Below, in pieces: positions 60,614-64,000 of a DNA stretch of 64,000 nt. The notes beneath the pieces are model-generated. The model saw only the letters and a program-made list of their open reading frames with translations. It was not told where the DNA came from and searched no databases. This DNA comes from an uncultured Mitsuokella sp. (lineage in GTDB: Bacteria > Bacillota > Negativicutes > Selenomonadales > Selenomonadaceae), in NCBI GenBank assembly GCA_945877355.1, contig CAMCRT010000004.1:1-64000 (forward strand), in the 5' to 3' direction. How positions within the stretch are numbered: the first letter of the stretch is position 1; each line of letters opens with the position of its first letter. The translations under genes were made by a program, and so were the position numbers.

Positions 60614-61474
60614 CTATGCCTTCCGGCCGCGGGTCTCTGTCAGGATGACCTCCGCATGCTCTACATCCGCGAAGGCATCACGTATTCTTTCTGCCTGCTC
60701 CCTCGTCTCCGCCAGGGCAAAGACGGTGGGGCCGCTGCCGCTCATCATGGCGGCGAGAGCCCCCGCTCCCAGCATCCTATCCTTGTATTCCTGGATGACG
60801 GGGTGCTCCCCTATACTAACACGTTCCAGCGCATTGCACAACAAGCGGGCTATCTCCTTCCGGTCTCCTGATGCCAGGGCCGCCTCCATCGCCGCGTTAT
60901 CCGGGCGGCGATCCGTGCCCTCCTTGTCATAGGTGCGGTAGGCCCAGGGGGTGGAGATGGAGATAGGCGGCTTTGCGAGCACCACGTAGAAGTGAGGCAC
61001 CGCAGGCAGTCGCCGGAGCTTCTCCCCTCGCCCAGTGGCGAGCATCGTGCCCCCCATGAGGGAGAAGGGGATGTCGGAGCCCAGCTCCGCTCCCAGGGAG
61101 CAAAGCTCCTCATCAGTCACGGGGATATCGTAGAGCCGCGTCATGGCGACGAGGGCCGCCGCCGCATCGGCGCTTCCCCCGGCGAGGCCCGCAGCGATGG
61201 GGATGCGCTTTTTGAGGCGGATTGCAGCGCCGCCCTTGATACCGTAGCGCTCCTTGACGAGGGCTGCCGCCCGCCAGGCGAGGTTCCGCTCGTCGCTCTC
61301 CAGCCCCTCCCGGTTATGGACGAGGGAGATGGCTCCCTCCGTCTTTTCCAGGTCGAGGGTATCGGAGAGTGCCAGGGACTGCATGACCATGGCTACCTCG
61401 TGAAAACCATCCGGGCGCGTCCCCAGGATATCGAGCGTCAGATTGATTTTTGCATAGCCTTCCACCGTAATCAA
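60614..61474 (-). CDS. ispE: 4-diphosphocytidyl-2-C-methyl-D-erythritol kinase
   Basis: AYAKINLTLDILGTRPDGFHEVAMVMQSL, IPIAAGLAGGSADAAAALVA, MMSGSGPTVFAL. Confidence 0.97.
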   Translation of the reverse strand: MITVEGYAKINLTLDILGTRPDGFHEVAMVMQSLALSDTLDLEKTEGAISLVHNREGLESDERNLAWRAAALVKERYGIKGGAAIRLKKRIPIAAGLAGGSADAAAALVAMTRLYDIPVTDEELCSLGAELGSDIPFSLMGGTMLATGRGEKLRRLPAVPHFYVVLAKPPISISTPWAYRTYDKEGTDRRPDNAAMEAALASGDRKEIARLLCNALERVSIGEHPVIQEYKDRMLGAGALAAMMSGSGPTVFALAETREQAERIRDAFADVEHAEVILTETRGRKA

Positions 61475-61604
61475 CGTTGCACCTCATTGACATTTTCAAA
61501 GATTTGTCCGATAGTATCTAGTGCGGCAATGTATTTTATCCGCACCGATACATCCTATTTCATCAAAACACTACTATCTTATCATAAACGGAGCTGTTTT
61601 TTCC

Positions 61605-62909
61605 ATGGAAAACTTCTCTTTTTTGCGCTATTACCTGCCCTTCTCCCTGATTCTCGCCATAAATATCGCCTTTGGCTGGCATTTTGCAGGTCTCACCCTT
61701 TGGGAGAGCCTCTCCATCCTTCTGACGGTTCTCTTTGCCATGCTCCCCTTCGGCCCATTGCTTGCGGTACGTCCGGCCCTGCAGCGGGGTCGGAAACGCG
61801 GGCGGATCCTTGGCTTTACGTTCACCTCGAGCTGGGCTCTCCATACCCTCTCCCAGGTGGACACCCTCGCCCTCGCAAAAAACGGCGTGGTGACGAGCGG
61901 CCATCCCTACATCAAGGCCCTCATCGGCGAGGGCACCACCAAGCTCTCCCTGCTGGCGCTTGCCGCCTCAGTGGAGCGAAAGGCAACCCATCCCGTGGGA
62001 AGGGCCATCTACGCCACGGCTATGCGCAACCGCTGCCGCCTCCAGATGCCCTCCGCCCTCTCGGAGCTCTCCGGTCTCGGCGCCGAGGGGCTCATCGCTC
62101 GGACCCCCGTCCGGGTGGGAAAGGGGAAATGGCTCCAGGAGGAAGGGGTAGAGATCAGCGCCGCGCTCCTGACCCAGGGAGACCAGATCGCCTGCCAGGG
62201 GCTCACGCCCCTCTACGTCAGCAATGGCCGTCACTGCCGCGGCATCATCGTCATGGCAGATGATATGCCGGAGGGCACGGCGGGTGCCATGCGAAAGCTG
62301 CGGAAGCTCGGGCTCCATACGATCCTCCTGACCGGCGAGGGCCGGCGGGTGGCGAATGCCATCCGGGAGGAGGCGGATATGGACGAGGCCCGGGCAAACC
62401 TCACGGCGGAAGGAAAGGCCCGGGAGGTCCAGCTCCTGCGCACGAAGGGAAAGACCATCGCCCTGGCTGGAGAATGGGCACGGGACGAGCTGGCCCTGAA
62501 GGAGGCCGATGTCCGCATCGCCCTTCTGCGTCCCCAGGGGACGCCCGGCTCCCCTCTCGATGTGACAGCGGAGGATACAGCAGCGGAAGCAACCGAACGC
62601 AGCGAGTAGGGCCCCATACATTCGGAGGATTCCGACGGAAACACGCCCGTTTACGACGGCTCCACCTATGACCTTTTGGTACATTCCGGAAATCTCGCCA
62701 GCATCCCAGATGCCATCGCCCTCGCTCGCCATACGACGAATGTCATACGTACCGGAAAAGTGCTCTCCCTCGTGGGAAGCCTTCTGCTTGCCCTTGCGGC
62801 GACAGGCCTTCCCCGCGCCTTTGGTTTGCCCTTTCTCCCGACCTATGCGGCAATAGGCCTAAATTTTTTTCTTGCGGGAATAATTTTTTTGAATGCCCGC
62901 AGGGCTTGA
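61605..62909 (+). pseudogene. degenerate P1B-type (heavy-metal) ATPase-like protein interrupted by an in-frame amber codon (62607-62609)
   Basis: DTLALAKNGVVTSGHP aligns to DTxxxDKTGTLTxGxP; THPVGRAI to HP motif; LLTGEGRRVANAIREEADMDEARANLTAEGKAREVQLL to TGDN region; LAGEWARDELALKEADVRIAL to GDGINDAPALxxADVGIA; ORFs 61521-62609 and 62676-62909 share the same frame with only TAG between. Confidence 0.8.
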
Positions 62910-62979
62910 TACTGCGCCTTTTGTCGCAGTATTCTCAGTTACAATAATAATTCTTTTTGACGAATCTCTCTATTTATCA

Positions 62980-63008
62980 TTGTTATCTGAATTGTTTTGC
63001 GCTATAAT
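62980..63008 (+). promoter_or_regulatory. sigma-A promoter of cydA
   Basis: TTGTTA-17 bp-TATAAT about 65 nt upstream of cydA. Confidence 0.65.
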
Positions 63009-63075: not shown

Positions 63076-64000
63076 TTGGAAGCCATGTTCCTATCGCGAT
63101 GGCAGTTCGCCATCACAACGGTCTACCACTTCCTGTTCGTCCCCGTGACACTCGGCCTCTCCGTCTTTGTCGCACTGCTTGAGACATGCTATGTGCGCAC
63201 GAAGAAGCCGGAGTGGAAGGGTGCGTGCAAGAAGCTCGTCCAGTTCTTCGGCGCACTCTTCATCATCAACTTCTCCATGGGTGTCGTCACCGGTATCGTG
63301 CAGGAGTTCCACTTCGGCATGAACTGGTCGGAATACGCCCGCTTCATGGGCGACATCTTCGGCGCCCCGCTGGCCCTCGAGGCCCTCACTGCCTTCTTCC
63401 TGGAGTCCACCATGCTCGGCGTCTGGATCTTCGGCTGGAAGCGCCTGTCGGAGAAGGCCCACTGCGTGACGATTTGGCTTGTGGCCATCGCCAGCAACCT
63501 GTCCGCCTTCTGGATCCTGGTGGCGAACTCCTTCATGCAGCATCCGGTGGGCTACGTGCTCAACAATGGCCGCGCGGAGATGCAGGACTTCTTCGCGCTG
63601 CTCACGAACCACTACGTCCTCGGCGAGTACACCCACACCTTCTTCGCAGGGTGGGCTACGGCAGGCTTCGTGGTCGTCGCCGTGTCCGCCTGGAAGGTGC
63701 TCCACGACGAGAAGTCCCGCAACGCCTTCCGCCAGACCCTGAAGAGCGGCGCCCTCTTCATGCTCATCGGCCTTCTGTGCTCTGCTGGCACGGGTCACTT
63801 CCATGCCCAGTATCTCGAGCAGGCAAACCCAATGAAGCTCGCAGCGATGGAAGCCCTCTGGGAGGATGAAAATCCTGCCCCCTTTGCCGTCTATGCGAAT
63901 ATCAATGAAAAGACCCACAAGAACGACTCGGAACTCACCATCCCCGGCCTCTTCTCCTTCATGGTCTACAACACGCCCTCGGGAGAGGTTCGCGGCATGA
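63076..64000 (+). CDS. cydA: cytochrome bd ubiquinol/menaquinol oxidase subunit I, N-terminal part (runs off the window edge), TTG start
   Basis: (M)EAMFLSRWQFAITTVYHFLFVPVTLGLSVFVALLETCYVRTKKPEW..., AAGGAGG RBS 8 nt before TTG; absent from the ORF track because partial. Confidence 0.95.
   Translation, partial: MEAMFLSRWQFAITTVYHFLFVPVTLGLSVFVALLETCYVRTKKPEWKGACKKLVQFFGALFIINFSMGVVTGIVQEFHFGMNWSEYARFMGDIFGAPLALEALTAFFLESTMLGVWIFGWKRLSEKAHCVTIWLVAIASNLSAFWILVANSFMQHPVGYVLNNGRAEMQDFFALLTNHYVLGEYTHTFFAGWATAGFVVVAVSAWKVLHDEKSRNAFRQTLKSGALFMLIGLLCSAGTGHFHAQYLEQANPMKLAAMEALWEDENPAPFAVYANINEKTHKNDSELTIPGLFSFMVYNTPSGEVRGM

Follow-up and report, generated by a model that had tools for sequence, protein, structure and literature searches.

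The gene that lies between ispE and cydABDC in the genome of an uncultured Mitsuokella sp. very probably encodes a catalytically dead protein that is kept by selection. Taken as a whole, the evidence makes it probable that this protein is a conserved, CopA-derived pseudoenzyme of the P1B-ATPase family, which acts as a nucleotide-responsive membrane regulator or scaffold; the chances that it binds nucleotides and has a regulatory role, as deduced from the retained residues, appear to be about even. Judged by its residues, a P-type transport cycle would be impossible for this protein. Because the degenerate copies form a single widespread clade, evolve with a dN/dS of 0.05-0.25 and have kept the ATP-contact residues compared with the loss of the catalytic and CPC residues, the protein can be regarded as an ancient, selected pseudoenzyme. 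The initial annotation had left a choice between a conserved pseudoenzyme and a very recent knock-out of a pump. The former is supported by one old clade under purifying selection, in which the phosphorylation Asp was lost in 104 of the 105 relatives; the motif loss is common to the whole bacterial family and is not private to this genome.

Gene structure and motifs

The window, i.e., the whole 64,000-nucleotide stretch of DNA that was analysed, carries the gene on the forward strand in a single frame from ATG 61605 to TGA 62907-62909, which is interrupted by one TAG (Table 1). The frame is open from 61515, and the ATG that is preceded by GGAG was assigned as the start. Both the interrupted frame and the position upstream of cydA had been described correctly; a divergent ispE lies on the other side and cydABDC downstream. 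The part matched by the copper P-type ATPases comprises the P and N domains together with the TM pair that precedes the P domain; the A. fulgidus CopA structures matched the window protein at 1e-30, TIGR01494 gave 67.0 bits (cut-off 62.3) and Pfam Hydrolase gave 44 bits. As regards a functional P1B-type pump, the homology was found and DKTGT, CPx, the actuator TGE and GDGxND were not. The protein lacks the HMA, the actuator domain with its TGE and the first four TM helices, in agreement with the claim that the N-terminal metal-binding and actuator domains are missing; the C-terminal TM pair is present. The substituted motifs (MLPFGP, AKNGV, TGEG and GEWARDEL) and the retained THPVG also read as had been claimed, and all of the N-domain ATP-contact residues (Glu, the HP His, GxG and G) were found. 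Compared with CopA (a P1B-1 copper exporter; TIGR01511/TIGR01525; A. fulgidus 3j08 and 3a1c), the protein has the TM pair, the P domain and the N domain with its ATP-contact residues in the same order over approximately 300 aa, but it lacks the HMA, the actuator domain, CPC, DKTGT and GDGxND, and has four TM helices whereas CopA has eight. An AlphaFold model of the window protein, in which TAG was read as Gln and the alignment comprised two sequences only, had a pLDDT of 34.

Table 1. Features of the pseudo-P1B-ATPase gene and its surroundings in the window.
Feature	Position	Strand	Basis
ispE, divergent neighbour and syntenic anchor	60614-61474	-	
Sigma-70-like promoter TTGACA-17-GATAGT in the divergent gap between ispE and the pseudoATPase gene	61487-61515	+	consensus match only
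Shine-Dalgarno-like GGAG, 11 nt 5' of the ATG	61590-61593	+	
Pseudo-P1B-ATPase, 334 codons up to the TAG, with a TM pair, the degenerate P domain and the N domain	61605-62606	+	sequence, homology, dN/dS
MLPFGP at the CPC metal site; Pro retained, both Cys gone	61740-61757	+	
AKNGV where DKTGT is expected	61875-61889	+	
N-domain Glu124 and His129-Pro130, retained; ATP-contact positions by alignment	61974-61994	+	
N-domain GxG (G157, G159) and G172, retained ATP-contact positions	62073-62120	+	
TGEG where TGDN is expected	62331-62342	+	
GEWARDEL where GDGINDAP is expected	62469-62492	+	
TAG in frame, within the variable linker that joins the P domain to the last TM pair	62607-62609	+	sequence; GGG in the nearest relative G001
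Remainder of the frame, with 99 codons for the linker and the C-terminal TM hairpin, and the TGA	62610-62909	+	sequence, selection
C-terminal TM pair, 3' of the TAG	62754-62891	+	
Hairpin in the gap that separates the pseudoATPase gene from cydA; the stretch has a fold z of -2.3 and lacks a clear T tract	62908-62933	+	
Promoter-like site of its own 5' of cydA	62980-63008	+	consensus match only
cydA, runs beyond the window; cydBDC next	63076-64000	+	

Distribution and retained residues

Searches of 61 related genomes and then of 189 Selenomonadaceae genomes showed that the gene is present in most members of this family of gut and oral bacteria, to which an uncultured Mitsuokella MAG that is a close relative of the window genome also belongs. 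By the count of best matches, the degenerate form occurs in about 150 of the 189 genomes; its carriers span some two dozen genera, the frames are open in the great majority of them, and only a handful of internal stops were seen among the matches listed. The ribosome-binding sites are retained in the family copies, and hydropathy indicated a 2 + 2 TM layout in most relatives. In 301 genomes sampled across the class, the matches outside the Selenomonadaceae were as long as an ordinary pump (at least 740 aa) and scored no better than an ordinary CopA; the other Negativicutes families in this sample thus had ordinary-length ATPases only.

Some copies deserve separate mention. Six genomes of genus g21 (G062, G064, G068, G070, G073 and G022) have frames of 380-413 aa with a weak match to the family, some with stops, which are probably remnants of the same gene. 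In G196, the pseudoATPase and cydA alike contain stops, a sign that the assembly is poor or the bin mixed. In genus g7 (L053), an RqcH/NFACT-like gene, so named by eye, starts within the end of the pseudoATPase frame, and translational coupling is suggested there.

Motifs were counted in the 105 degenerate loci that were extracted, with some columns scored in 104. The phosphorylation Asp was kept in one of the 105 and its Thr in three, one CPC cysteine in 12 of 104 and the other in 10, and the Asn of GDGxND in seven of 104. The N-domain Glu was kept in 97 of the 105, the His of HP in 95, the second Gly of GxG in 105 and the third Gly in 104; the Glu of SEHP was kept in only 10 of the 105. The sole degenerate member with the Asp, L055 (G020), reads DRSGT and is missing the actuator domain and GDGxND. 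Retention was also computed over the 122 columns that are invariant in 24 active ATPases, and the ATP-contact positions were placed via an alignment to the CopA structures, their roles being those established for the CopA and ATP7B N domains. The mean retention was 0.91 for the ATP-contact positions, 0.36 for the catalytic positions and 0.11 for the CPC cysteines. The ATP-contact positions exceeded both the catalytic positions (p = 0.0007) and the other invariant N-region positions from DKTGT to TGDN (0.91 vs. 0.55, one-sided p = 0.024), some of the retained ATP positions being glycines that may be structural instead.

Selection

Across the family, dN/dS lay within the range given above in all 33 computable pairs of the 34 independent species pairs. 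In the matched pairs, the values for the pseudoATPase were above those for cydA (0.01-0.10) and ranged from slightly below to about twice those for ispE; they lay near those for ispE or cydCD. The window gene and its nearest relative differ by no indel across 433 codons and have an overall dN/dS of 0.20, with 0.17 on the 5' side of the TAG and 0.33 on the 3' side, compared with 0.03 to 0.27 for the neighbouring genes. The part that encodes the C-terminal TM hairpin had by itself a pN/pS of 0.31 (p = 6e-6). The comparison of orthologues that had been proposed initially thus revealed constraint both before and after the TAG until recently.

Origin of the locus

The degenerate copies formed one clade, with a UFBoot of 100 in a 60-sequence subset tree and an SH-like support of 0.947 in the full tree, although, given its long branches, loss on several independent occasions retains some plausibility. 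This clade is nested in a locus clade, to which six intact ATPases of the CopA type from four genera also belong, and stands apart from the canonical CopA found in the same genomes. Orthologues with DKTGT, which had been named as a sign of ordinary pseudogenisation, do exist at the same locus, but they fall outside the pseudoenzyme clade, where they represent the ancestral state, and are not evidence of recent decay. Intact copies adjoin ispE at L039 (G017) and at L040 and L178 (G025/G095), the latter two with cydABDC or cydA next downstream, and the order ispE, this gene, cydABDC is ancestral. At L039, L040 and L060, an HMA (CopZ-like) segment seems to sit past the stop of the intact locus ATPase because the CopA query matches through the stop.

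A strong CopA match was found in 171 of the 189 genomes, and a canonical CopA accompanies the pseudo copy in nearly all genomes. The six genomes with an intact locus copy have no separate canonical CopA, their best CopA match being the locus-type copy itself. Intermediates were also observed: the A domain is present with its TGES destroyed in L032 and L054, and it is eroded with the N-terminal TMs still present in L035 and L052; the N-terminus is gone in most degenerate copies. The history of the locus was likely one of replacement followed by repurposing. The ancestor of the Selenomonadaceae would have carried a CopA-type copper ATPase between ispE and cydABDC; with a second, canonical CopA present, the locus copy would have lost the phosphorylation Asp, the CPC cysteines and the GDGxND loop, next the actuator domain and, in most lineages, also the first four TM helices. 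What remained would be four TM helices, two on either side of an N domain that is carried by a degenerate P-domain scaffold. Given the retained residues, the N domain most likely still binds ATP or ADP, and the protein would most likely serve as a membrane-anchored nucleotide-responsive regulator or as a scaffold for another membrane protein.

Discussion

The TAG in the window gene invites the reading that this is a decaying copper ATPase pseudogene whose catalytic motifs were lost first. The nearest relative (G001) has the sense codon GGG at this place, two changes from TAG, and its frame stays open there; a TAG at this position was seen in no other family member. Because it occurs in this genome only, the relative is open and the downstream region was under selection until recently, the TAG is either a lesion of recent date or an error of the assembly. 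It would remove the last TM pair of the window protein, and the only in-frame restart site 3' of it, TTG 62676, has no clear ribosome-binding site. The same relative has ATA after a good Shine-Dalgarno sequence where the window has its ATG start (L061:6001-6003). Both genomes of the pair thus show a possible lesion, which could reflect a real weakening in the lineage or metagenome assembly errors, and therefore this genus may be one in which the gene is weakening. Decay would also fit the remnants in one genus and the stops or frame breaks that occur rarely elsewhere, but open frames across so many genomes and genera, the low dN/dS, the invariant N-domain residues and the conserved ribosome-binding sites largely refute it for the family as a whole, and we consider it improbable. 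Read-through or recoding of the TAG would give the full protein in the window genome, and the 99 open codons past it, formerly under purifying selection, would be in line with this. TAG is, however, a normal stop in this genome, where it ends ispE, which rules out stop-codon reassignment; as the relative has a plain sense codon and the TAG was seen in no other relative, read-through is extremely unlikely.

To our knowledge, cytochrome bd contains no copper. The link to this oxidase that had been suggested initially stands as a positional one: cydA is directly downstream at 37 of the 105 loci, ispE is upstream at 47 and at least one of these neighbours is present at 67, with contig ends hiding some. 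A dedicated assembly or regulatory factor for cytochrome bd would occupy a position analogous to that of CcoI/FixI with the cbb3 oxidase, and cydA also follows the intact locus of G025/G095. CcoI/FixI is a CopA2-type P1B-ATPase of cbb3 oxidase biogenesis (PMC8475189), and CcoI transports copper. The two cases have in common that a P1B-related gene adjoins a terminal oxidase operon in many genomes; the pseudoATPase differs in that its catalytic residues are lost and its oxidase link is dispensable. Strict co-occurrence with cydA was not found. cydA is missing from 33 of the 189 genomes, including every genome of genus g7 (11 in all) and G195, which is nearly complete, and those that were examined keep the pseudoATPase gene. 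Moreover, nearly every genome of g13 and half of those of g17 have the gene next to unrelated genes although cydA is present, and no constant gene partner was found around the relocated copies. Since the gene persists in the absence of cydA in g7 and in several further genomes, and has been relocated in other lineages, a functional tie to cytochrome bd is not required; with the separate promoter-like site and hairpin before cydA, we give a dedicated bd factor little credit. A special case of the regulator reading, in which the protein has a modulating effect on the canonical CopA present in its cell, e.g., by pairing or by competing for the copper chaperone, is rather unlikely but better placed. 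Descent from a CopA and the canonical CopA in nearly every genome with the gene favour it, but the metal-binding cysteines and the HMA are gone, there is no shared operon, and the co-occurrence follows from the replacement history.

We therefore prefer the conserved, nucleotide-responsive pseudoenzyme. Because the residues for pumping were lost, yet selection kept the protein and the residues of its ATP-binding pocket, it was probably repurposed for another job. This resembles pseudoenzymes in general (PMC5106787, PMC10211241), in which catalytic motifs are lost while the fold and some ligand-binding residues stay under selection. No described bacterial P-type ATPase pseudoenzyme was found among the titles and abstracts listed from the literature covered, with subscription papers lying mostly outside the search, and the passages found in a 2023 review of the superfamily (PMC10654040) contain no such inactive bacterial protein. 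In these bacteria, a protein labelled ‘P-type ATPase’ or ‘HAD hydrolase’ need not export copper. Tentatively, with the odds falling slightly short of even, this family may have turned a P-type ATPase into a dead ATP-binding membrane regulator, its living members preserving the steps: an active pump, a disabled A domain, a lost A domain and a lost N-terminal half. The intermediates in living genomes offer an experimental series from pump to non-pump. P-type ATPases are defined by their phospho-aspartate, and a selected, family-wide lineage without it signifies that the rest of the P-type molecule can be useful by itself.
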